Positions 35,381-47,235 of a stretch of 64,000 nucleotides of DNA are shown here, one piece after another (the stretch's first letter is position 1; every line of letters starts with the position of its first letter). The notes under the pieces were generated by a model that was not told the DNA's origin, ran no database searches, and saw only the letters and a list, made by a program, of their open reading frames with translations. The DNA comes from Bacteroidota bacterium (GTDB lineage: Bacteria > Bacteroidota > Bacteroidia > B-17B0 > Aurantibacillaceae), in contig JAUXZS010000028.1 of NCBI GenBank assembly GCA_030692515.1, positions 1 to 64,000 on the forward strand. The letters run 5' to 3'. The translations under genes and the position numbers were made by a program.

Positions 35381-36646
35381 ATGAACCTACTAATTAAACA
35401 GGCAAAAATTTTAGCAACTAACAGTCCGTTTTACAATAAAGTAATGGATATTTTAATTGAAGGAGGCGTTATTGTAGAAATTAAAAAATCAATTACACCT
35501 AAAGGAAACATTAAAATTATTGAAGGTGAGGAATTAAATATATCCAATGGTTGGGTTGATATGCAAGCCGTAGCTTGTGACCCCGGCTTTGAATACAAAG
35601 AAACTCTAGAAACTTTAATAAAAGGAGCTGCTGCTGGAGGATTTACATCTGTTTGTATACATAATTATAATAATCCTGCCTTACATAATAAATCACAGAT
35701 TGAATATGTTTTAAATAAAACTGAAAATAAATTGGTTAAGGTTTTACCGTTTGGAACAATTTCAATTAATGGAAAAGGTAAAGATCTTGCCGAAATGCAT
35801 GACATGAAAAAGTCTGGGGCAATTGGCTTTAGCGATTACAAACACCCAATACAAGATGCAGGAATGGTAATGCGTGCTTTACAATATTCAGAAAACGTTA
35901 ACTCATTTATTGTAACACATTGCGATGACGAAAGTATTTCAAATGGTGGACAAATAAATGAAGGCGAGGTTTCTACCGCATTGGGCTTAAAAGGTATTCC
36001 GGTATTGGCAGAAGAATTAAACTTGCAACGCAACTTAGCAATTTTAGAATACACAGGAGGAAAATTACATATACCAACTGTTAGTACAAAGGGTAGCGTT
36101 GAATTATTAAAGAAAGCTAAGGCTAGTGGATTGAATGTAACTTGTGGTGTAGCAGCAATAAATTTATTTTTAGATGATACAAATTTAACCGAGTTTGATA
36201 CAAATTATAAAATTAATCCACCGCTTCGTTCTAAAAAAGATGTTCAGGCCTTAAGGAGCGGTATTACTTCGGGAATAATTGATGTAATTGTGAGCGATCA
36301 TTTTCCGCAAGATGTTGAAAGTAAAGATTTAGAATTTGATTTGGCAGATTTTGGAATGATAAATATCCAAACAGCGTTTTCATGCGCGTTAGAAGCTTTA
36401 AAAGATAAAAATATTGATTCAATAATAAAGTCTTTGACAGATAACGCATATTCAATTTTAGGAATAAAAACACCGATAATAGAAGAGGGGAGCGAGGCAA
36501 ATCTAACTTTATTCTCAATTAAAGATTCAACAACATTAACCGAAAAAACCAATTACTCAAAATCGAAAAACTCTCCGTTTTTTAATAAACCTTTAACAGG
36601 AAAAGTAATTGGTATTGTAAACGGAACAAAAAGTTTTTTTAATTAA
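35381..36646 (+). CDS. Dihydroorotase homologue with degenerate metal site (probably non-catalytic PyrC')
   Basis: 421 residues with the class I dihydroorotase fold. Catalytic members carry D-x-H-x-H-x-R-E-P-G at the first strand; here the text is VDMQAVACDPGFEYKE, so both histidines and the substrate arginine are gone. The HVSTK site reads HIPTVSTKG, so its metal-ligand histidine is threonine. The VTHCDD histidine and the catalytic-type aspartate in SDHFPQ remain. Similar inactive versions act as structural partners of aspartate transcarbamoylase in some bacteria, and Bacteroidota often carry this diverged form besides a true pyrC. The metabolic step is therefore not assigned. Confidence 0.85.
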   Translation: MNLLIKQAKILATNSPFYNKVMDILIEGGVIVEIKKSITPKGNIKIIEGEELNISNGWVDMQAVACDPGFEYKETLETLIKGAAAGGFTSVCIHNYNNPALHNKSQIEYVLNKTENKLVKVLPFGTISINGKGKDLAEMHDMKKSGAIGFSDYKHPIQDAGMVMRALQYSENVNSFIVTHCDDESISNGGQINEGEVSTALGLKGIPVLAEELNLQRNLAILEYTGGKLHIPTVSTKGSVELLKKAKASGLNVTCGVAAINLFLDDTNLTEFDTNYKINPPLRSKKDVQALRSGITSGIIDVIVSDHFPQDVESKDLEFDLADFGMINIQTAFSCALEALKDKNIDSIIKSLTDNAYSILGIKTPIIEEGSEANLTLFSIKDSTTLTEKTNYSKSKNSPFFNKPLTGKVIGIVNGTKSFFN

Positions 36647-36677
36647 ACTTCGGTTAAGTATATAAAAACCCATATAA

Positions 36678-38276
36678 ATGAAAAAAAATATTGTTTTTAT
36701 ATTCTCTGTCTTTTATTTCAATTTTTTTATTTCTCAAAATAAATCTGTTGATTCTTTATTAGCAGTTTTTAAAGTAACTAGTGACGATACAACTAAGTGT
36801 AATATTCTTGATAAATTGATAGAATTAGAAGAAGACGATAATGTTTGGCCTAAATATAATCTTCAATTAAAAAAAATTATTGATGAAAATTTAGCAAAAG
36901 AAGACCTTTCTCCAAAATTAAAACAAACTTTCCTAAAACATCTTAGTTCGTCTTATAACCATTTTGCATATGTTGCTAAACAACAGGGTAAAACTTTAGA
37001 AGCATTGGATTATTACGAAAAAGCTTTAGAAATAAACAAAAAAATTGGTGATAAAATAGGAGTAGCCTTATTTTATAATAATAAAGCTGCTATATTTTTA
37101 GTAAGAGGTGATTTATCTCTAGCAATTGAAAATTTCGAGAATAGTTTAATTATTAGTGAAGAATTAAAAGACGAAAACGCTATTGCAACACTATTAAACA
37201 ATATAGGTGTAATGTATGAAAGGCAGGGGAATATTAAAACAGCCTTAGATTATCATTTAAGAAGTTTAAAAATCAGGGAAAAAATAAACGATGAACACGG
37301 TATAGCATCTGCCTTAAATAATATCGGGGTTATTTATTTAAAACAAAAAGAGTTTAGTAAGGCATTAAATATTTACCAAAGGAGTTTAAATTTAAATGTA
37401 AAATCTCATAATAAAACCGGAATTGCGACCTCATTAAATAGTATTGGCAACGTATTTAGGTTGAAGAATAATATGGATAAAGCGCGTTATTATTACAATC
37501 AAGGCATTGCAATTTGTTTGGAGATAAATAGCATTCCTCAACTCGGACAGTTATATACTAGCATGGGATTATCTTATAAAAAGGATGATGAAATAGAAGT
37601 TGCTTTAAACTATTTTGAGAAAGGCTTTAAGATTAATGAAGAGATTGGTGATAAATCTGCCATGGCGAATTCTTTATTTTATTTAGGAGATTTATATTTT
37701 AGAAAAGAAAATTACGACAAAGCACTTACTTATGGTTTACAGTCATTAAAATACAGTAGAGAATTAGGTTACCCAGAAAATATTGTAAACGCATCAAACC
37801 TTCTTTACAATATTTATAAGAAGAAAAATCAAGGCATGTTAGCACTAGAAATGCACGAGTTAAAAGCTTTTTATAAAGATAGTTTAGAGCACATGGATAA
37901 CAGAAAGGAATTATTAAAAAAGCAGTATCAGTTTGAATATGATATTAAAAGCACAGCCGATAGCATAAAAGTGGCCGAAGAAAAAAAGATAACTGAAGTA
38001 AGGTTTAAACAAGAAAAAACACAGCGCTATGCTTTATATGGTGGTTTAACTATGATAGGTTTATTTTCAATATTTATGGTTAATCGTTTTAGAGTCATTA
38101 GAAATCAAAAAAGGCTAATTGAAATAAAGGAAAAAGAAACTAAAAAGCAAAAAGATTTATTAGATGAAAAACAGCAAGAGATTTTAGCCAGTATTCGGTA
38201 TGCTAAAAGAATTCAGGATTCTTTATTGCCTTCAGAAAAATATATAGATAGAAATTTTAAGGAATTAAAAAATTAA
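36678..38276 (+). CDS. TPR sensor with membrane helix, ending before its expected SpoIIE domain
   Basis: 532 residues. Signal peptide (1-19), about seven to eight TPR units (~60-400; e.g. SYNHFAYVAKQQGKTLEALDY, ALNNIGVIYLKQKEFSKAL), a coiled region (~410-440), one membrane helix (~450-468) and a cytoplasmic coiled-coil linker ending with YAKRIQDSLLPSEKY. That linker is the same one that precedes the phosphatase domain in the 5609-8746 protein (YAERIQRSLL), but here a stop follows within 20 residues. Convergent genes begin at the stop, so no SpoIIE remnant is left. It may be a true short receptor or a truncated one; the reading frame itself is undamaged. Confidence 0.82.
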   Translation: MKKNIVFIFSVFYFNFFISQNKSVDSLLAVFKVTSDDTTKCNILDKLIELEEDDNVWPKYNLQLKKIIDENLAKEDLSPKLKQTFLKHLSSSYNHFAYVAKQQGKTLEALDYYEKALEINKKIGDKIGVALFYNNKAAIFLVRGDLSLAIENFENSLIISEELKDENAIATLLNNIGVMYERQGNIKTALDYHLRSLKIREKINDEHGIASALNNIGVIYLKQKEFSKALNIYQRSLNLNVKSHNKTGIATSLNSIGNVFRLKNNMDKARYYYNQGIAICLEINSIPQLGQLYTSMGLSYKKDDEIEVALNYFEKGFKINEEIGDKSAMANSLFYLGDLYFRKENYDKALTYGLQSLKYSRELGYPENIVNASNLLYNIYKKKNQGMLALEMHELKAFYKDSLEHMDNRKELLKKQYQFEYDIKSTADSIKVAEEKKITEVRFKQEKTQRYALYGGLTMIGLFSIFMVNRFRVIRNQKRLIEIKEKETKKQKDLLDEKQQEILASIRYAKRIQDSLLPSEKYIDRNFKELKN

Positions 38277-38683
38277 TTTTGCTTTTTTAAAATCTCCAGC
38301 TTATAATGAACATTCATATCAAATTCGTTATCTGTATGATTGTTTTGAATATGTTGGTAAAGCTTAAAACATTTTGTTTTTAGAGATAGATATTTTTCTT
38401 CCTCATTTTTCTCGGCATAAAAATTAAGTTTTTCGAAAAGCAGATCGGCCAAAATTTTCTTTTGATCTTGAATTAGATTAGGGTGATTTAAAATTTGTTT
38501 TTCAAAATCAGGTTCATTTAGATTCTCTACGGTGTTAATTTCAAGGCTTGTAAATTTTACGGCAGCATTTTTAATTTCTTTTTCAAAGTTGGTCCAATCG
38601 TTTTGTTTTTTGAAACCTAAAATCACCGCCATTACTTTTCCAAACTCTTCAAGTTGCCTAAGTATATAGTCTTTTCTAAGCAT
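38273..38683 (-). CDS. Conserved-looking small cytoplasmic protein of unknown function
   Basis: 136 residues, helical and highly charged (many Lys, Glu), no signal peptide or membrane segment and no recognised motif. Its start overlaps the coaE gene by 8 bases (38676-38683), so it is transcribed and probably translated with it. Its stop overlaps the stop of the TPR gene on the other strand by 3 bases. The amphipathic helical pattern, including FDMNVHYKLEIL at the end, may indicate a helical-repeat fold. Confidence 0.65.
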   Translation of the reverse strand: MLRKDYILRQLEEFGKVMAVILGFKKQNDWTNFEKEIKNAAVKFTSLEINTVENLNEPDFEKQILNHPNLIQDQKKILADLLFEKLNFYAEKNEEEKYLSLKTKCFKLYQHIQNNHTDNEFDMNVHYKLEILKKQN

Positions 38684-39254
38684 TTGTTAGTTTTCTATAA
38701 ATCTCTAAAACCTGAGTAATTAAAAAATCTTTTTCATCATTATAAATTACAAAGTCAGACTTTAATATTTTTTCTTCTTGGGGTAATTGCGCTTTTATTT
38801 TACTAGTTACATCCTCTTTACTTAGATTATCACGTTGCATAACCCTTTTAATTCGCAATTCATCATTTGCGGCAACTAAAATTATTTTATCAACTTCGTT
38901 TTCTAATTTCGCTTCAAACAATAAGGCGGTTTCTTTAATAATTAGTTTATTTTTATGTAATTCTTTAAATTGTACAAATTTTTCTATTACAGCAGGATGA
39001 ATAATAGCATTTAATTGATGTAATAAATTAGTATCAGAAAATATTTTAGAGCTAATATATTTTTTATCAATTTTAGTTGATGAAACGTAAGCTTCTTTAC
39101 CTAACAAATTAATTATTTTCGGTTTTATAGTTTCATTAAAATATATCTCTTTAGCAACCACGTCGCTATAGAAAACAGGACAGCCAATAATTTCAAATAA
39201 GTTGGCTACCGTTGTTTTACCACTACCTATACCTCCCGTTAAACCTACTACCAT
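38676..39254 (-). CDS. coaE: Dephospho-CoA kinase
   Basis: 192 residues. The P-loop VGLTGGIGSGKTTVANLFE is at residues 3-21, followed by the CoaE motif CPVFYSDVVAKEIY and a typical lid and R-x-x-Q-R-D sequence (KRVMQRDNL, ~135). It phosphorylates dephospho-CoA at the 3' hydroxyl, the last step of CoA synthesis. It starts at the last base of the YbbR gene stop and overlaps the downstream gene by 8 bases. The preceding pathway enzyme, CoaD, is found 5 kb away as a fusion. Confidence 0.95.
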   Translation of the reverse strand: MVVGLTGGIGSGKTTVANLFEIIGCPVFYSDVVAKEIYFNETIKPKIINLLGKEAYVSSTKIDKKYISSKIFSDTNLLHQLNAIIHPAVIEKFVQFKELHKNKLIIKETALLFEAKLENEVDKIILVAANDELRIKRVMQRDNLSKEDVTSKIKAQLPQEEKILKSDFVIYNDEKDFLITQVLEIYRKLTNA

Positions 39255-40213
39255 TATTTTTTAATGATTAAAATTTCTACTTCTTTGGGTTCTAGACCTA
39301 TTATATTAACGTTACCGGGTACTGTACTTAAAACAACAGAACATTTGTTATTGGAATTAATTTTTAAAGGATTAATATTTGCTCTAAAGAGAGATGTATC
39401 TGAAATACTAAATTGATTTTGCATGCTGGTAAACTTCACATTTACTTTTGAAGGGAAAATAGTAATTTGTTTAAAATTATCGCTATTCAACGCGGTTATT
39501 GGCAATTGTATAGTATGTTCAATTAATTTATTTACTTCAATAGTAATTAATACTTCGGCGGCAGATGTGCTCACAAACGAATTAGGTTTAATAATAACTA
39601 AGTTGCCTTTATAGCTTTGATTTATATTAATTAAATTAAGTGGTTGAGTATACATCGTATCAATTTTATTGATTACAGATTTGTCGCCATAAATGGTTAT
39701 AAAGGATGGAGAAATTTCGGGGTGATTAAATGCAAAGCCCTGAGTACATTTTAAATAAAGAGGTACTTTAACCGGAACATTTTTCTGATAACCATTTTTT
39801 TCGGAAAAGTAGAGTGTATCTGGGCTAATACGTTTTATTTGGGTTTCAAATTTAAAACTGCCTTTAAAATTTAGGCCACTACCCGTTAAAATATAGTTTT
39901 GCTGTTTATTAGTTAATTTTAAAGTATTAAAATCAATTTCAACAGGTTTAAAAGGTTTATTTGCTAAAACTAAAAGTAATTTTAATCCCGAAGCTTTTAC
40001 GTCAACACTAATTTTATCAGGTAATTGTGTTAAAGCAATTTTGTTTTGAGGTAAATTTTTAAACGTAACCGGAACTATTAAGTTGTAATTATATACAGTA
40101 TTAAGCGCTTGTAAAATCCAAAGTAAACAGGCAATTGCTACACAAATAAAAAAAGCCGTGGCTTTGCCAGGCTTTCTTTTTTTTTCTGAATATGATGTGT
40201 TTGAATTATTCAA
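39254..40213 (-). CDS. YbbR-like (CdaR-type) membrane-anchored protein
   Basis: 319 residues with one N-terminal membrane helix (about 18-40) and repeated YbbR-like domains of about 80-90 residues each, marked by VPVTFKNLPQNKIAL and similar strands (residues ~48-315). In Firmicutes YbbR proteins regulate the diadenylate cyclase; in Bacteroidota the gene is widespread beside yajC and coaE, as here. A role in controlling an envelope or nucleotide signal is inferred. Gap to yajC is 10 bases. Confidence 0.85.
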   Translation of the reverse strand: MNNSNTSYSEKKRKPGKATAFFICVAIACLLWILQALNTVYNYNLIVPVTFKNLPQNKIALTQLPDKISVDVKASGLKLLLVLANKPFKPVEIDFNTLKLTNKQQNYILTGSGLNFKGSFKFETQIKRISPDTLYFSEKNGYQKNVPVKVPLYLKCTQGFAFNHPEISPSFITIYGDKSVINKIDTMYTQPLNLININQSYKGNLVIIKPNSFVSTSAAEVLITIEVNKLIEHTIQLPITALNSDNFKQITIFPSKVNVKFTSMQNQFSISDTSLFRANINPLKINSNNKCSVVLSTVPGNVNIIGLEPKEVEILIIKK

Positions 40214-40223
40214 ACGTTTAGTG

Positions 40224-40544
40224 TTAAGGTTGGTTTAAAGTTGCAGTTGCATCCTGAGAAATAGAATTCTTAGATATTTTCATTTTGCTACCATCTTCAA
40301 CTTCCATAATGATAGTACCATCGTCTTTCATATCCGCAATTTTTCCATAAATACCACCAATGGTTAAAATCTTATCTCCTTTTTTTAATGCTTCAAGATA
40401 TTTTTTTTGATCTTTTGCTTTTTTCATTTGAGGACGAATCATGAAAAAATAAAATACTACGATGATTGCTACTAAAGGTAAAAATTGCATTATTGGGCTT
40501 TGTCCTGCAGCGGGCGCCCCCATTAAAATTACTAGTTGGTTCAT
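40224..40544 (-). CDS. yajC: Preprotein translocase subunit YajC
   Basis: 106 residues: a membrane helix (about 20-40, FLPLVAIIVVFYFFMIRPQ), then the small cytoplasmic domain with KKYLEALKKGDKILTIGGIYG and V-E-D-G-S-K-M-K-I. The FMIRPQMK junction is the family hallmark. YajC joins SecDF beside the Sec channel. It follows the DUF1573 gene by 36 bases. Confidence 0.95.
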   Translation of the reverse strand: MNQLVILMGAPAAGQSPIMQFLPLVAIIVVFYFFMIRPQMKKAKDQKKYLEALKKGDKILTIGGIYGKIADMKDDGTIIMEVEDGSKMKISKNSISQDATATLNQP

Positions 40545-40580
40545 GTTTTGTTTGTGTTTTTATTTATTGATTAATTATTT

Positions 40581-41036
40581 TTATTTAGCAGTTTCTGCTA
40601 CTATTATTTCTGTTTTAATTCTTAATATTCTTGTTGCAGGTTCGCAATTAGTAACAATGGTAATTGTTTTTTCTTGAATTCCGCTCTTACCTTCGCTGCT
40701 AAAAACAACATTAATTTTATTTTCTTCGCCTGCTTTAATTGGTTCTTTAGGCCAATGCGGCACAGTACAACCGCAACTTCCACTTGCGCCACTAATTATT
40801 AAATTTTGCTTTCCTATGTTTTTAAAAGAAAAAGCATGGCTAACAATTTCACCTTGTGTTATTTTTCCAAAATCAAACTCTTCTTCTTCAAATTTTATTT
40901 CAGGAAGTTTCGAATCGTTTTTTCCATTTGCGCTTGACGAGTTGTTTACAATATCTGTATTGATAGCGTTATCATTTTCATTATTGCTACATGCGCAAAG
41001 AGAAAAAATAAAAACTGCAAATAATGTTTTTTTCAT
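40581..41036 (-). CDS. DUF1573 domain lipoprotein
   Basis: 151 residues from the ATG at 41036; the TTG four codons upstream was rejected because MKKTLFAVFIFSLCAC is a proper lipoprotein signal with lipobox L-C-A-C (Cys at residue 16). The DUF1573 domain covers the rest: FDFGKITQGEIVSHAFSF and the SGSCGCTVPHWP motif near residue 87. It is a typical Bacteroidota periplasmic or surface lipoprotein of unknown role, next to yajC in many genomes. nusB, the usual upstream neighbour, is replaced here by a DUF6089 gene across a terminator. Confidence 0.92.
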   Translation of the reverse strand: MKKTLFAVFIFSLCACSNNENDNAINTDIVNNSSSANGKNDSKLPEIKFEEEEFDFGKITQGEIVSHAFSFKNIGKQNLIISGASGSCGCTVPHWPKEPIKAGEENKINVVFSSEGKSGIQEKTITIVTNCEPATRILRIKTEIIVAETAK

Positions 41037-41080
41037 AATAAGTCGCAAATATAAGGAGATTAAAGAGGTTTTAAAACAAA

Positions 41081-41106
41081 AAAAATCCCAATTGCTTGGG
41101 ATTTTT
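41081..41106 (-). terminator. Rho-independent terminator after the DUF6089 gene
   Basis: AAAAATCCCAA (41081-41091) pairs with TTGGGATTTTT (41096-41106) with a TTGC loop; on the minus strand the hairpin is followed by a run of T, closing the DUF6089 transcript. Confidence 0.88.
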
Positions 41107-41122
41107 ATTTAAATATTTTTGT

Positions 41123-42037
41123 TTAGAACTTAGCTCTAATCTTTCTCATCTTTCTCTTTTTACCTTTTCCAAAGAAGCCGTGTCTAGCTCTGTAAAAACT
41201 ACTTTTCCCTCTTATAACATAACTATAACTTACACTCATAGTCATGTATGCATCTTTGTGCGTTGGATCACCTCTTTTTTGCCCCCAACCATGAGAGTTG
41301 TATGCACCAACATTATCCGACAAACCTTGAGCACCAAGTTCCGTTGTTCTTAATACTAAACCTTGAGTGTATCCATCTGTTGGTTTTTCTGTTGGGTAGT
41401 TACCACTAATATCATCTAAATAATCTGTAAAAGTTTTTCTGTAATTCATTTCAAAACCAAGACGATGTTTTTTATCAAACGTAAAATAAAAACCTAAACC
41501 CATAGGGATATTTAAAACAAAAGCTTTATACTCATACCCTTCAGAAGCGTATGGTCTCATTTTAACCCATTCTCCTTGATAAAGACTTTTAGGACTGGTA
41601 TAAAAACCTCCAACTCCCGCAAATGCATACGCTCTAAATCCATTTCTGTATCTGTAAGTATTACCTAAGTCATTATTCTCATAAAAAAACCATTCTCCGG
41701 TAAAACCTAAATCAAAAACGTCATTTTTAAAATTAAAATTTCTGTATTTACGACCAGGATTAGTTGATAATTTATCATCTCCTTCAATTCTAATATAATC
41801 AAAAGCTAATTTTAAAGATAGCTTTGGTCTCCATTTATATCTCACAAAAGCACCACCATTCCAACGTGTTTTGGCTAGTTTCATGTCGGCAACAAAATCT
41901 TTCCTTGTTTTTTCTTTACCTCCAATATCTCCTAAGTAATTGGATGCTCCAACAGCTCCACCATATTCCCAAAGCCATTGCGACTTTAATGAAAAAGTAC
42001 AAGAAATTATAAAGATGGATAATATAAGTTTTTTCAT
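41123..42037 (-). CDS. DUF6089 family outer-membrane beta-barrel (PorG-like)
   Basis: 304 residues. Signal peptide 1-19 (TFSLKS-Q), then the family start WLWEYGGAVGASNYLGDIGG, an eight- to ten-stranded barrel (RYKWRPKLSLKLAFDYIRIEGD, FLGFEMNYRKTFTDYLDDISG), and an unusual basic tail (KKRKMRKIRAKF). This family includes PorG, which binds the T9SS PorKN ring complex; PorG assignment is plausible but cannot be confirmed here. The gene has its own terminator. Confidence 0.85.
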   Translation of the reverse strand: MKKLILSIFIISCTFSLKSQWLWEYGGAVGASNYLGDIGGKEKTRKDFVADMKLAKTRWNGGAFVRYKWRPKLSLKLAFDYIRIEGDDKLSTNPGRKYRNFNFKNDVFDLGFTGEWFFYENNDLGNTYRYRNGFRAYAFAGVGGFYTSPKSLYQGEWVKMRPYASEGYEYKAFVLNIPMGLGFYFTFDKKHRLGFEMNYRKTFTDYLDDISGNYPTEKPTDGYTQGLVLRTTELGAQGLSDNVGAYNSHGWGQKRGDPTHKDAYMTMSVSYSYVIRGKSSFYRARHGFFGKGKKRKMRKIRAKF

Positions 42038-42165
42038 AATTTTAAAATACCTCCAAATATAGAAAAAAAAATGTTAAAAAGCGCAATAAATTTAATGATT
42101 AAGTTTGTTAGCTATTTTTTGCCTAAAAAACATAAATTTATGCCAGATTTGTTAAAATACTATCA

Positions 42166-43116
42166 ATGAAAAACAACAGAATTTGTGAATTATTTAATAT
42201 AGAAAAACCAATTATTCAAGCAGGGATGATTTGGTGTAGTGGATGGGAATTAGCAAGTGCAGTAAGTAATGCAGGTGGCTTGGGTTTGTTGGGTTCGGGA
42301 AGTATGTATCCTGATGTTTTAAGAGAGCAAATTCAAAAATGTAAAAAGGCAACTAATAAACCTTTTGGTGTTAATGTTCCCTTATTATATCCAAATATCG
42401 AAGACCATATAAAAATTATTATTGAGGAAGGTGTAAAAATTGTATTTACTAGCGCAGGAAATCCAAAAACATGGACCAAACATTTAAAAGAGCATGGAAT
42501 AACAGTAGTACATGTTGTAAGCGCTTTAAAATTCGCCTTAAAATGTGAGGAAGCGGGAGTAGATGCTATCGTGGCAGAAGGTTTTGAAGCCGGTGGCCAT
42601 AATGGAAGAGAAGAAACTACAACCTTAGTTTTAATACCACAAATTAAAAAAGCCATTTCAATTCCCTTAATTGCTGCCGGTGGCATAGGCTTTGGGTCAC
42701 AAATGGCAGCTGCTTTCGCCTTAGGAGCTGAGGCTGTTCAAGTTGGAAGCAGATTTGTTGCAAGCCCAGAAAGCAGCGCACATTTAAATTTTAAAGAGGC
42801 CGTTGTTAGAGCTAAGGAAGGCGATACTGTTTTAACTTTAAAGCAACTTACACCAGTAAGATTAATAAAAAATGAGTTTTATTTAGAGGTTGAAAAGGCT
42901 GAAAAGGAATGTGTATCAACTGAGGAATTGGCAACACTTTTGGGGCGAGGCAGGGCCAAAAAAGGTATGTTCGAAGGCAATTTAATTGAAGGAGAATTAG
43001 AGATTGGTCAGGTAAGCGCCTCTATTGATGAAATAAAATCAGCTGCACAAATTGTAGACGAATTAATGAACGATTTTAAGAATGTAATTGAGAAAATGAA
43101 GACGTTAGTATTATAG
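42166..43116 (+). CDS. FMN-dependent NAD(P)H oxidoreductase (nitronate monooxygenase / FabK-like)
   Basis: 316 residues of the 2-nitropropane dioxygenase/FabK TIM-barrel family: PIIQAGMIWCSGWELASAVS near residue 14, SNAGGLGLLGSGS, EGFEAGGHNGR (~138-148), LIAAGGIGFGSQMAAAFALG and VQVGSRF, which bind FMN. Nitronate monooxygenases oxidise alkyl nitronates; FabK reduces enoyl-ACP. The short length and the GHNGR motif resemble both; substrate is not assigned. It stands between two unrelated clusters. Confidence 0.9.
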   Translation: MKNNRICELFNIEKPIIQAGMIWCSGWELASAVSNAGGLGLLGSGSMYPDVLREQIQKCKKATNKPFGVNVPLLYPNIEDHIKIIIEEGVKIVFTSAGNPKTWTKHLKEHGITVVHVVSALKFALKCEEAGVDAIVAEGFEAGGHNGREETTTLVLIPQIKKAISIPLIAAGGIGFGSQMAAAFALGAEAVQVGSRFVASPESSAHLNFKEAVVRAKEGDTVLTLKQLTPVRLIKNEFYLEVEKAEKECVSTEELATLLGRGRAKKGMFEGNLIEGELEIGQVSASIDEIKSAAQIVDELMNDFKNVIEKMKTLVL

Positions 43117-43170
43117 TGTTTTTAGGATTAATTTTGATACTAATAGATAAACCCAGATTTTAAGTAGGAT

Positions 43171-44415
43171 ATGATAGAGTTTACAAAATTTACATTGGAA
43201 AATAATTTACGCGTTATTGTACATGTTGATAAAAGCACACCTTTAGCGTGTTTAAATATTTTATACGATGTTGGTGCAAGGGATGAAGATGAAAACAAAA
43301 CAGGTTTTGCGCATTTATTTGAGCATTTAATGTTTGGTGGTAGCGTAAATATTCCAAGTTTTGATGAGCCTTTGCAAATGGTGGGCGGAGAAAATAACGC
43401 TTTTACTACAAATGATATAACAAATTATTATTCCACAGTTCCAGCAGAAAATATTGAAACCATGTTTTGGTTAGAAAGTGATCGTTTGTTAAGCCTTGCT
43501 TTTACGGATAAAAGTTTAGATGTTCAGCGAAGTGTTGTTATTGAAGAGTTTAAACAACGTTATTTAAATCAACCATATGGCGATGTGTGGTTAATTTTAC
43601 GTCCCCTTGTTTATGAAATACATCCCTATAAATGGGCCACTATTGGTAAAGAAATTTCGCATATCGAAAATGCTAATATGGAAGATGTAAAGGCATTTTT
43701 TAAAAAGCACTATAATCCCAGCAATGCAATAATGGTAATTGCTGGTGATGTTGATGTTGACCAAGTAAAATTATTAGCTAAGAAATGGTTTGAACCAATT
43801 CCCATAGCAGAAAAACACCATAGAAACCTACCAATTGAACCTAAACAAACTAAACCTAAGCGATTAACGGTAGAGAGGGATGTGCCCGCCAGCGCTATCT
43901 ATAAAGTATATCATATGTGTGCAAGGGGTGATGAAGAATATCACACGGTTGATATTATTTCTGATATTTTAAGTAGAGGAAATTCTTCTCGTTTATATAA
44001 AAATTTAATAAAAGATAAACAATTATTCAGCGATTTAAACGCTTACGTTATGGGCGATTTAGATAAAGGTATTTTTGTTATCAGCGGCAAAATTCCCGAT
44101 AACGTAATAATGGAAGATGCTGAAAAAGCAATTATTGAAGAGGTTGAAAAATTAAGAACTGAATTAGTTGGTGAAATAGAATTACAAAAATGTAAAAACA
44201 AAATCGAATCGAGTTTAACCTTTAGCGAAACAGATGTGTTAACTAAAGCTACAAACCTAGCTATATCAGAGTTGTTAGGAAGTGCTGATTTGATAAACGA
44301 GGAAATTACTCGGTACAATAAAGTAACCGCCGAACAAATAAAAGAACAGGCAAACTTAATTATAGATGAAAATAATTGTACGACTTTATATTATTTAGCT
44401 AAAAATAAATGTTAG
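43171..44415 (+). CDS. M16 family zinc peptidase, catalytic subunit
   Basis: 414 residues, a PqqL/YmxG-like M16B protease. The inverted zinc motif is H48-x2-E51-H52 in AHLFEHLMFGG, with the third ligand glutamate about 75 residues on (VVIEEFKQRY). The N- and C-halves both have the M16 fold. It should degrade peptides in the periplasm or cytoplasm; no signal peptide is visible. A second M16 protein lacking the motif is encoded at 47237, separated by two genes. Its last seven bases overlap the next gene. Confidence 0.93.
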   Translation: MIEFTKFTLENNLRVIVHVDKSTPLACLNILYDVGARDEDENKTGFAHLFEHLMFGGSVNIPSFDEPLQMVGGENNAFTTNDITNYYSTVPAENIETMFWLESDRLLSLAFTDKSLDVQRSVVIEEFKQRYLNQPYGDVWLILRPLVYEIHPYKWATIGKEISHIENANMEDVKAFFKKHYNPSNAIMVIAGDVDVDQVKLLAKKWFEPIPIAEKHHRNLPIEPKQTKPKRLTVERDVPASAIYKVYHMCARGDEEYHTVDIISDILSRGNSSRLYKNLIKDKQLFSDLNAYVMGDLDKGIFVISGKIPDNVIMEDAEKAIIEEVEKLRTELVGEIELQKCKNKIESSLTFSETDVLTKATNLAISELLGSADLINEEITRYNKVTAEQIKEQANLIIDENNCTTLYYLAKNKC

Positions 44416-45362
44416 ACATAAATTATATTTCAAATAGATTAACCCAATTAGGTTTTTCAACTTCTGTCTTAAAAAGGTATGATGAAACTCATCGTTATTA
44501 TCATACAACAGAACATTTATTGGATATAGTTTCACAATTATCAAAATTAGATTCTTTTGATGATGAATTATTTTTAGCGGCTGTTTATCATGATGCCATT
44601 TATAATCCTCAAGCCTCTGATAACGAAGAAAAATCAGCTAATTTATTTTTGGAAGAAGCAAAAAGTAGCGCACTCTCAAAACCTCAAAAGGATGCCATTT
44701 ACCAATTAATTATTGATACAAAAACGCATCAAGCCTCGAGTGATAAATCAAAATTATTTGTAAAAGCCGACCTTAATATTTTAAATCAACCTTTAAGTAA
44801 ATTAATTGAATACGAACATCAAATTTTTAAAGAATTTCAATTTGTAGATTATAAAGTTTACCAACCTAAACGTATTGAGGTTTTAAAAGGATTAAATTCA
44901 AATGGAAAGTTGGATGCATTAATTGAATATGTAGCTTCAAGAAAACCTCTTATTGGCGTTTTTTGTGGAAGTTTTAATCCCTTTCATAAAGGACATTATA
45001 ATATTCTTACAAAAGCAGAACGTATTTTTGATAAAGTCATTATTTCATTTGGAAAAAATCCAGATAAACCCGGCAGAACTTGGGACATTCCTAACTCTAT
45101 AAAAAACCGGCAGCTTACAGAATATAGCGGTTTAATAACAGATTTTGTTGAGTCGTTGGGCTACGATGTTGTTGTTGTTAAAGGTTTGCGTAATTCTACC
45201 GATTTTCAATTCGAACAAAATCAATACCGTTATATCCAAGAATTAATGCCAAAGATTAAAATCATTAATATTTTTTGCGATAAAGAATTCGAACACATTA
45301 GTTCTTCCGGAATTAGAACACTAGAAAAATTTGATAAACATAAATCTTATTTATTGGATTAA
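44409..45362 (+). CDS. HD-domain phosphohydrolase fused to pantetheine-phosphate adenylyltransferase (CoaD)
   Basis: 317 residues. Residues 1-~175 are a HD-superfamily phosphohydrolase (HTTEHL ~30; YHDAIYNP with the H-D pair ~62; VKADLNIL as the last aspartate ~118). Residues ~180-317 are CoaD: GVFCGSFNPFHKGHYNIL (nucleotidyltransferase motif), FDKVIISFGKNP, VVVKGLRNSTDFQFE and FEHISSSGIRTLEK. CoaD makes dephospho-CoA from ATP and phosphopantetheine. Both halves look complete, and no frameshift is needed, so this is a true fusion. The role of the HD half is unknown. It overlaps the M16 gene by seven bases. Confidence 0.88.
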   Translation: MLDINYISNRLTQLGFSTSVLKRYDETHRYYHTTEHLLDIVSQLSKLDSFDDELFLAAVYHDAIYNPQASDNEEKSANLFLEEAKSSALSKPQKDAIYQLIIDTKTHQASSDKSKLFVKADLNILNQPLSKLIEYEHQIFKEFQFVDYKVYQPKRIEVLKGLNSNGKLDALIEYVASRKPLIGVFCGSFNPFHKGHYNILTKAERIFDKVIISFGKNPDKPGRTWDIPNSIKNRQLTEYSGLITDFVESLGYDVVVVKGLRNSTDFQFEQNQYRYIQELMPKIKIINIFCDKEFEHISSSGIRTLEKFDKHKSYLLD

Positions 45363-45366
45363 TCGG

Positions 45367-47235
45367 ATGCAGTTACTAGAAAAACACTTTAATAATTTTT
45401 TTTGGTTACTGAGTTCCGTTATTTTTGTCATTATTTCACTTCGAGCTTTTTTTATTCCTTTTAGTCATGATGAAGCAGCCACATTTTTCTTTTACGTTCA
45501 AAGCGACAATTATTTGCCTTATAGCGCCCACGTTTATACAAATAACCATGTTTTAAACAGTGCCTTAACAAATATATTTTATCACGTTTTAGGCTCTCAT
45601 CGTTTTGTTCTAAGAATTCCAAATCTTTTGGCATTTTTAGTGATGTGTTTTGGTGTTTTTAAATTGTTTAAACATTTAAATATTATTTCTTCTAAATTAA
45701 TTTTAATTTCTTTTTTGATATTGACGTTTAATTTTCTCGATTTCTTTGAAGTATGTCGTGGTTATGGACTTTCTTTCGGTTTTATGACTTTGGGTCTTTC
45801 TTATTTAGTCGACTATTTTTCATCCAAAAAAATTAAACATCTCGTTTTGTTTTCGCTATGCTGGCAATTAGCACTTGCTGCAAATCTAATACTGGTGGTA
45901 ATTTTAAGTGCTTTACTTTTTTTCATCTTTATTTTTCAAATTCGCGAAAAACTATTTTTTAATATTAAAAATATAATTCTTCAAATCGTAAACATTTCAA
46001 TTCTTATTTTTTGGGTTAAGTTTTCTTTTTTTTATAAGGAACAAGGAATGCTTGATTATGGTGTGGGCGATAATTACTGGAACGTTACATTTAAAACATT
46101 AATTTTAATTTTATTCGGAAACGACTATTTAGGGATACAAATAGTTTCTTTAATCTTATTCGCAGTAATAATCATTTCATCATCTTATTATTTTTTTCAA
46201 AAACCTTTTTCTGTATTTACTATTTTTAATAAAACGTTATTTTTTCCTGTAATTTTAATCACCTGCATCATTGCTTTTTATTTACAGAAAATAATATTGG
46301 ATGTTAATTTTCCTGAAGATAGAACCGGTCTGTTTTTCTATTTATTTTTTGTTTTAAGTCTTGCTTTCTTAATAGATAAATTCTCTAAATCTATTGCCAT
46401 AATTGTGGCAGCTGGTGTTTTAATTCCTTCTTGTTTTCATTTCATCAACAAGCTTAATTTTAGCAATTATACTTCGTTATATTATCATACTATGCCAAAA
46501 GCTTTGTTTGATACATTAACCGAAGAATATAAAAAAACTGACCAAATTTTTACGATTGGTGGTCACCGTGTGCGTGAATTAAATTATGCATTTTTAAATT
46601 ACAGAGGAGGTTCTGTTTTAAATCACATGGATGTATCTGAACAAATGGTGATGAATTGCGATTATTATTTTGCTATGAAACGCGAAAAACCTTACTATAA
46701 TTATTTTTATGATGAAATAGGTTATGATACAGAGTGGGATAGGGTATTATTAAAACGTAAGGAAAAAATAAAAAAAGAAGAGTTATTTACAATTAGTCAT
46801 TTACCAAAAATATATACCGGTAATCAAGAATATTTTGAGTTTTTGCGTTTTGGCGATACCCTCTCAAGCTCTGGTAATTGCCTTGAGGCAGAAGTCGCTA
46901 TTCATTTTAATAAGACTCCAACTCCATTTAATGCTTTTTTAGTTTTTAGTATTGATAATAATGAAAATGAAATGGTCTATTTTAAACGTGTACCTTTAAA
47001 TTGGTTAGCAGATGATTTAAGTGGAGAAACAAAACATTTTAAAATAACAACCGGCATTGTTCCTCAAAAAGGTTTAACAGGAGTTGTTTTTTTATGGAAC
47101 ATTGATAAACAGGAAGTAGATTTTACATTAAATAACTTAAAAATAAATGAACTAAAGGGTAAAGGCGTTAATTTTACAATTCCGAAAAACTTTTATCCTT
47201 TAATAGAAACAATCACTAAAAAATCTCTTTTATAA
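45367..47235 (+). CDS. ArnT/PMT-like multi-pass membrane glycosyltransferase
   Basis: 622 residues from ATG 45367; an earlier TTG reading would start inside the previous gene. About ten to eleven membrane helices precede a ~180-residue soluble C-terminal region. The first periplasmic loop carries the FSHDEAATFFF motif with the catalytic-type Asp-Glu of GT-C enzymes (GT39/GT83 type), and NNHVLNSALTNIFYH follows. These enzymes use a polyprenyl-phosphate sugar to glycosylate lipids or proteins in the periplasm. The gene follows the HD-CoaD stop by 4 bases and precedes the M16 partner by one. Confidence 0.8.
   Translation: MQLLEKHFNNFFWLLSSVIFVIISLRAFFIPFSHDEAATFFFYVQSDNYLPYSAHVYTNNHVLNSALTNIFYHVLGSHRFVLRIPNLLAFLVMCFGVFKLFKHLNIISSKLILISFLILTFNFLDFFEVCRGYGLSFGFMTLGLSYLVDYFSSKKIKHLVLFSLCWQLALAANLILVVILSALLFFIFIFQIREKLFFNIKNIILQIVNISILIFWVKFSFFYKEQGMLDYGVGDNYWNVTFKTLILILFGNDYLGIQIVSLILFAVIIISSSYYFFQKPFSVFTIFNKTLFFPVILITCIIAFYLQKIILDVNFPEDRTGLFFYLFFVLSLAFLIDKFSKSIAIIVAAGVLIPSCFHFINKLNFSNYTSLYYHTMPKALFDTLTEEYKKTDQIFTIGGHRVRELNYAFLNYRGGSVLNHMDVSEQMVMNCDYYFAMKREKPYYNYFYDEIGYDTEWDRVLLKRKEKIKKEELFTISHLPKIYTGNQEYFEFLRFGDTLSSSGNCLEAEVAIHFNKTPTPFNAFLVFSIDNNENEMVYFKRVPLNWLADDLSGETKHFKITTGIVPQKGLTGVVFLWNIDKQEVDFTLNNLKINELKGKGVNFTIPKNFYPLIETITKKSLL

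Follow-up and report, generated by a model that had tools for sequence, protein, structure and literature searches.

Why would the enzyme that forms dephospho-coenzyme A be made in one polypeptide chain with a putative hydrolase? The question is raised by a gene in the window analysed here, a stretch of 64,000 nucleotides from a Bacteroidota bacterium (assembly GCA_030692515.1, contig JAUXZS010000028.1, positions 1 to 64,000 of the forward strand). A first-pass annotation, made from the sequence alone, described this gene as an HD-type phosphohydrolase fused to CoaD, the phosphopantetheine adenylyltransferase (PPAT) of coenzyme A (CoA) synthesis. The fusion is real and conserved. We give about an even chance to its being a two-enzyme chain, in which a divergent CoaD would be joined to a working, dispensable HD hydrolase with a clean-up function. 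The gene and its parts are the following:

44409..45362, plus strand: HD-CoaD fusion gene, open frame of 317 residues with full-length counterparts in relatives
44409..44783, plus strand: putative HD phosphohydrolase catalytic part, residues 1-125 (H32, H36, H61-D62, E73, H107, D121)
44784..44948, plus strand: C-terminal helices of the HD half, residues 126-180, which form the N-terminal piece of the short forms described below
44949..45359, plus strand: CoaD half, residues 181-317 (S188, H196, K220, R261, E269, S298-S299), the region of the TIGR01510 and PF01467 matches

The frame starts with ATG, overlaps the end of an M16 peptidase gene by 7 bases and contains no inner stop. The source genome (4.33 Mb in 68 contigs) has a completeness rating of 100%, and the AlphaFold2 model of the whole protein is confident (predicted local distance difference test, pLDDT, 94.2; predicted template modelling score 0.89). 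The annotation had described one uninterrupted frame with the motifs of both enzymes complete, and this is borne out: the frame is intact, the active-site residues of both halves are kept, and the same frame is present in other genomes. It had also considered that a sequencing error might join two open reading frames. This is excluded by the recurrence of the same fused frame in dozens of genomes, including those of named Mucilaginibacter and Thermonema strains, and the probability of an assembly or sequencing artefact is negligible.

The C-terminal half matches PF01467 at residues 184-303 (40.3 bits for a cut-off of 21, E 4e-10) and the coaD model TIGR01510 at residues 183-310, with a score (79.8 bits) below the annotation threshold of 103.3. 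Among the solved chains which match this half, 34 of 36 are named phosphopantetheine adenylyltransferase, and the other two are MJ0541 and a nicotinamide mononucleotide (NMN) adenylyltransferase. The half superimposes on E. coli CoaD (6ccq) over 136 residues, with a VIA-align Z of 18.4 and a root-mean-square deviation (rmsd) of 1.9, and ends near residue 148 of the E. coli protein. H196, K220, R261, E269, S298 and S299 are invariant in 42 full-length and 40 short rows, and S188 is present in 41 of the 42 and 39 of the 40, with T in the remaining rows; these rows include some identical proteins, and two of the 40 short ones are pieces of split long genes. They correspond to the active-site residues of CoaD (T/S, HxGH, K, GLR, E, ISSS). 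The fold, the active-site motifs and the presumed reaction are thus common to this half and to ordinary CoaD (TIGR01510, about 160 residues). The fusion-type sequences differ from it in forming a separate clade on a long branch of the CoaD tree (support 100/100), in having conserved N-terminal helices, and in the motif GSFNPFHKGH, where the consensus of ordinary CoaD is G[ST]FDPxTxGH.

No second CoaD was found in the source genome with TIGR01510, the next-best match (24.7 bits) being a frame of 194 residues which by eye starts like NadD. The other four PF01467 frames over the cut-off start, again by eye, like NadD, RfaE-type, TagD-type and RibF proteins. The absence of a stand-alone coaD, which the first-pass annotation had asked to be checked, is therefore confirmed for this genome. 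The same holds for its refuting case, a complete second coaD beside a decayed fused copy: the fusion is intact and is the only CoaD found. Ten genomes were scored with TIGR01510. In nine of them the fusion or short form is accompanied by no other CoaD; the tenth, Mucilaginibacter G474, has an ordinary one. All ten have CoaBC. The single-contig genome G394 and the two-contig genome G395 have no further CoaD-like gene, barring a second match of 23-26 bits. Of the fusion and short-form proteins of these ten genomes, only that of G168 passes the TIGR01510 cut-off (107.4 bits).

The search for the fusion across Bacteroidota, which the annotation had also suggested, found it intact in 31 other genomes of the family, in a second family (f24), in Thermonema and in some Mucilaginibacter. 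The order of the source organism comprises 83 genomes, all of family f1: 33 have the full fusion (the source included, and also G413, whose copy has an in-frame stop), 36 a short form which lacks the HD catalytic part, seven only an ordinary CoaD and eight no match. The fusion or short form is thus present in 68 of the 83, and 67 of these have no ordinary CoaD-like match, the exception being G413; the seven genomes with ordinary CoaD have neither form. Family f24 (14 genomes) has four full, six short and two ordinary forms, and two genomes without a match. Thermonema rossianum has the fusion only, without ordinary CoaD. In a sample of 392 genomes of the phylum (up to five candidates scored in each), six have a fusion-type CoaD among the matches listed, three with the HD part (G000, G023, G168) and three without (G204, G220, G316); four genomes gave no match, and what is listed for the remaining genomes is either ordinary CoaD or a stand-alone HD frame. 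The situation is different in Mucilaginibacter, the genus of G474: the fusion is carried by 16 of 120 genomes, interrupted in one of them by an in-frame stop, and a fragment by two; all 16 carriers also hold an ordinary CoaD. In this genus the fusion looks like an accessory gene under decay. In a further copy, L035, the frame is broken near residue 25 and H32 is replaced by V.

Taken together, the fold, the active-site residues and the absence of another CoaD make it very probable that the C-terminal half is a PPAT, which would convert 4'-phosphopantetheine and ATP into dephospho-CoA. It is most likely a working one, since it is the sole CoaD-like gene in genomes that carry CoaBC. That it could be another adenylyltransferase, CoA being made in some other way, is very unlikely. 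The score below the TIGR01510 cut-off and the coexistence with ordinary CoaD in all Mucilaginibacter carriers would fit this explanation, but near-complete genomes with CoaBC have no other CoaD-like protein, the fusion or short form and ordinary CoaD exclude each other in the order (G413 excepted), the fold and the solved relatives are those of CoaD, and the G168 member passes the cut-off. In a large part of this uncultured Bacteroidota family, the fusion-type protein is thus presumed to be the only CoaD. It mostly scores under the standard cut-off there, and its recognition fills a gap in the annotation of family f1.

The HD half (residues 1-180) matched no Pfam or NCBIfam family at the limits used, and no HD model matched the whole protein at E 1 or the HD half at E 0.1. 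It carries the H...HD...D metal motif (H32/H36, H61-D62, D121) and aligns with stand-alone HD proteins. In an alignment of 26 fusions with 19 of these proteins, R29, Y31, H32, H36, H61, D62, E73, S76, T104, D121 and E142 are invariant and H107 is nearly so. H61, D62 and D121 are present in all 42 full-length rows and H32 in 41 of them. The plasmid relatives are annotated, for example, as "N-methyl-D-aspartate receptor NMDAR2C subunit" or as metal-dependent hydrolase, and tblastn gives about 31% identity between the HD half and two listed plasmid genes with the NMDAR2C annotation. We take this stand-alone family to be COG4339, a name absent from the literature searched, which left most subscription papers outside its coverage. 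The stand-alone proteins share the invariant residues, but the fusion lacks their last helices and has the joint to CoaD in that place.

The HD half is probably a catalytically active metal-dependent phosphohydrolase, because its metal and catalytic residues are invariant and it is under purifying selection. Indeed, the median ratio of nonsynonymous to synonymous substitution rates (dN/dS) of the HD part is about 0.13, a value from three close pairs, the only ones of 105 which met the limits. The HD part evolves faster than the CoaD part, with a mean column identity of 0.65 compared to 0.87. Modelled alone, the HD half has a pLDDT of 97.1.

What this enzyme would hydrolyze is best approached from the NadD-YqeK protein of mycoplasmas (PRK07152/NF005519), which likewise combines an HD phosphohydrolase with a nucleotidylyltransferase from the synthesis of a cofactor. 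According to one report, the YqeK domain of this fusion hydrolyzes wrong analogues of nicotinic acid adenine dinucleotide (NaAD) which a nonspecific NadD can make, and also 8-oxo-GTP; a strain with an inactivated HD site has no growth defect, and transposon data from JCVI-Syn3A suggest that the NadD part is essential and the YqeK part quasi-essential (PMC9426524). The protein described here has CoaD in place of NadD and an HD domain of another family, and scores 22 bits with NF005519 (cut-off 315). Its HD domain comes first and not last, the mycoplasma order being deduced from the residue number H230. YqeK itself (TIGR00488) is not among the NCBIfam matches of the fusion at E <= 1. A study of YqeK describes a further pair of histidines located between the HD motif and the final D (PMC8177086), whereas in the fusion only H107 is conserved between D62 and D121.

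By analogy with NadD-YqeK, the HD half would cleave wrong or surplus phosphoanhydride products made by CoaD. Candidate targets would be CoA analogues formed from damaged phosphopantetheine or from ATP analogues, and dinucleoside polyphosphates. Such a clean-up may be useful and yet dispensable, a short helical stub substituting for the HD half in many relatives. E. coli PPAT accepts phosphopantetheine analogues and, slowly, RNA with a 5'-triphosphate adenosine, pppA-RNA (PMC10761072), so that CoaD may have side products to be removed. This tolerance and the NadD-YqeK precedent are the reasons for ranking clean-up first and the hydrolysis of a signal nucleotide second. We propose clean-up of CoaD products as the main role only tentatively, at somewhat less than an even chance.

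Several points weigh against this role. The same study reports that E. coli PPAT rejects pppG-RNA, and that its efficiency with pppA-RNA is likely about 280-fold below that with ATP (PMC10761072); CoaD need not, therefore, be sloppy towards a wrong base. The HD half lies outside the YqeK family, with the domain order reversed. Because the same type of HD protein stands alone in many genomes of the phylum sample, its reaction need not concern CoA. The Mucilaginibacter fusion sits beside an ordinary CoaD in each carrier, and the short-form genomes live without the HD catalytic part. Finally, the fold of the HD half comes closest to the cores of class I cyclic-nucleotide phosphodiesterases (Z about 13 over 177 residues, with an rmsd of about 4), a match weak for helical folds, which can reach such Z values without kinship, and one that would fit a signal phosphodiesterase equally.

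It is indeed possible, although rather doubtful, that the HD half hydrolyzes a signal or otherwise unrelated nucleotide (a cyclic nucleotide, an alarmone or a dinucleoside polyphosphate), in which case CoA synthesis would answer to the signal or the two enzymes would merely be co-expressed. Besides the phosphodiesterase fold, which matches over the whole length, and the stand-alone occurrence of the HD type, small alarmone hydrolase chains appear among the weak Foldseek rows for the HD half, none of which is under 1e-3 (best E 0.023). The order is also devoid of ApaH (0 of 65 genomes) and of YqeK over the cut-off (0 of 65, with one weak match of 20 bits), so that the post of diadenosine tetraphosphate (Ap4A) hydrolase may be vacant. 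However, the short-form genomes lack YqeK and ApaH too, and a separate HD protein of this type is only weakly matched in 2 of 36 of them (G422, 36.5 bits; G443, 30 bits); the post is thus not visibly refilled when the HD part is lost. The vacancy was rejected as the reason for retaining the HD part, long and short genomes offering no contrast. Moreover, comparison by sequence found no phosphodiesterase or alarmone hydrolase, the matches being E. coli YedJ (E 0.006-0.008) and a designed protein (E 1.1).

The phosphatase half of PANK4 provides another model. The HD half would then dephosphorylate 4'-phosphopantetheine, or damaged forms of it, ahead of CoaD, and act as a valve on the flux. This is unlikely: it would agree with the fusion to an enzyme which uses phosphopantetheine, and a single metal is bound through H...HD...D in the HD monophosphatases known (PMC8177086), but a phosphatase active on the normal substrate beside the sole CoaD would be wasteful.

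The short form, a protein of about 200-220 residues, bears on the dispensability that the clean-up role supposes. It retains approximately the last 55 residues of the HD half ahead of CoaD. Its match begins around residue 105-130 of the fusion, so that H32, H61-D62 and, as a rule, D121 are lost. Across f1 (32 full and 34 short rows, without L148 and L149), E136, F140, Q144, Y151, R155 and P180 are invariant. E142, in contrast, is present in 32 of 32 full rows and relaxed in the short ones, where the commonest residues are L (15), Q (5) and T (3); L132, I139 and K141 are likewise fixed or nearly fixed in the long rows only. We infer that one face of the kept helices may serve CoaD and the other the HD site; the short stub seems to be the part of the HD half which CoaD itself needs. 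The HD activity is dispensable, since short forms replace it in relatives, and it is not essential to CoA synthesis in general, given the 36 short forms among 83 genomes and the Mucilaginibacter fusion beside ordinary CoaD. The conservation of the 55-residue tail in both forms also suggests a probable structural role towards CoaD for a portion of this half. That the whole half is a structural or allosteric module with incidental catalysis is improbable, as the short forms keep the tail only and the catalytic part, where present, keeps its metal residues.

The history of the two forms is probably not one of simple loss. In a CoaD tree of 99 rows and few columns, long and short forms are interleaved, with 11 changes, at least 5 of them forced by the starred branches (two of the 40 short rows being split long genes). 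Many independent deletions of the HD part were the first idea, and were replaced by an exchange of modules. The firm case is the pair formed by L121 (short) and L104 (long): their CoaD parts are 99% identical (135/137) but their N-terminal tails only 31% (17/55), while the L121 tail is 82% identical to that of another short form, L136. At the DNA level, the two loci are 86% identical in the M16 gene and have no blastn match over the N-terminal module; the match resumes ten bases before the GSFNP codons, with 92-100% identity per 60-base segment throughout most of the CoaD region. Such natural pairs with and without HD (G467/L104 and G456/L121) make it possible to measure the effect of the fused HD half on CoA synthesis.

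Trees of 73 rows (nine of 82 were omitted: two split frames, L149, L035 and five rows of f24) point in the same direction. The short forms group together in the tail tree (55 columns), which requires one change, whereas the CoaD tree requires seven and rejects a single short-form clade (p-AU, approximately unbiased test, 0.0028). Against an exchange, the starred branches of this CoaD tree force only one change, and the tail clade has a support of only 58 on its 55 columns; convergence, too, could bring relaxed tails together. In the simplest scenario, the HD catalytic part would have been lost long ago, and the two kinds of N-terminus would later have recombined between lineages near GSFNP. 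The stub is homologous to the end of the HD half, which, together with the fusion of Thermonema, leads us to infer that the ancestor had the long form. The exchange may go further, the N-terminus being a replaceable cartridge, either an HD hydrolase editing miscoupled CoA or dephospho-CoA (possibly also CoA-capped RNA ends) or a bare stub, swapped at GSFNP. This is a speculative proposal, with perhaps one chance in four; if true, proofreading of CoA would be gained and lost as a module. In G465, a long and a short form are found on different contigs (L099 and L115), with CoaD halves 93% and tails 31% identical.

The HD-CoaD fusion extends a known theme, the linkage of cofactor adenylyltransferases to HD hydrolases, and the short form and the N-terminal exchange are new additions to it. 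The literature search, with the same coverage as above, found nothing joining phosphopantetheine adenylyltransferase, an HD domain and a fusion. A second case beside NadD-YqeK would suggest that this kind of fusion is a recurrent editing design, and the NMDAR2C-annotated HD family gains a partner enzyme, hence a testable set of substrates. An archaeal fusion (PRK01170/NF002250) also joins a CoaD-type enzyme to a hydrolase; it combines a different type of CoaD with an NTP phosphatase, and the HD-CoaD fusion scores 17 bits with NF002250 (cut-off 489). A role of the fusion in a defence system was considered and rejected, PADLOC giving no match at E 0.1.

Two neighbouring genes of the window help to place the locus:

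43171..44415, plus strand: M16 peptidase gene, directly upstream of the fusion, used as a locus marker
38676..39254, minus strand: CoaE (dephospho-CoA kinase; PF01121, E 1e-42)

Of 39 short forms, 32 have an M16 gene within the 900 bases that precede them. In wider flanks, taken from ten f1 genomes, M16a adjoins the gene in nine and M16b follows in eight, whether the form is long or short. Since this upstream gene is common to both, the short form is mostly at the same locus as the fusion. In these 32 short forms, M16 is separated from the stub by 2-189 bases in 29 cases and by about 500 in the other three. Weak tblastn matches to the HD part upstream of 13 of 39 short forms (best E 0.002-0.01, best query L103) were first considered as remnants and are read as chance, because by their position they fall inside the M16 gene.

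CoaE is on the opposite strand, 5.2 kb from the fusion gene. The first-pass annotation, which noted that the last two steps of CoA synthesis are both in the window, was right about the presence of CoaE; a functional link is not supported, as the arrangement is confined to the source genus among the genomes compared. It is kept in the four genomes of this genus which were compared (G394, G395, G396, G405), but CoaE was found in none of six genomes from four other genera of the family, nor in four outside it (G023, G204, Thermonema and Mucilaginibacter G474), within the fetched flanks of mostly about 9 kb per side. A functional cluster was therefore rejected in favour of synteny of the source genus (14 genomes).

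Several isolated observations concern single genomes. In L107 (from G413) and L029 (from the uncultured Mucilaginibacter G478), two unrelated copies of the fusion, an in-frame TAA takes the place of the E136 codon, which is conserved elsewhere; this could be due to chance, to error or to a preferred split point. G478 has an ordinary CoaD, and the only other CoaD match of G413 is on a contig of 10 kb (C67), which may be a contaminant. This match (L162:1360-2619) is a CoaD-CoaE fusion of 420 residues, an ordinary CoaD (TIGR01510, 145 bits) followed by CoaE, as in a bacterial CoA synthase; like the HD-CoaD protein, this COASY-like enzyme has CoaD in a two-enzyme chain, with CoaE as the partner. 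L149, the short form of the small genome G398 (2.3 Mb), has a very long branch (2.05), its CoaD being 52% identical to the nearest rows. Contig C18 of G212 (35783-47161) carries an ordinary CoaD and, about 10 kb from it, an HD frame that stands alone, possibly a loose association of the unfused genes. In the window itself, a frame of 136 residues which adjoins CoaE (38273-38683, minus strand) has a DUF6483 match close to the cut-off (23.3 bits compared to 24.1).

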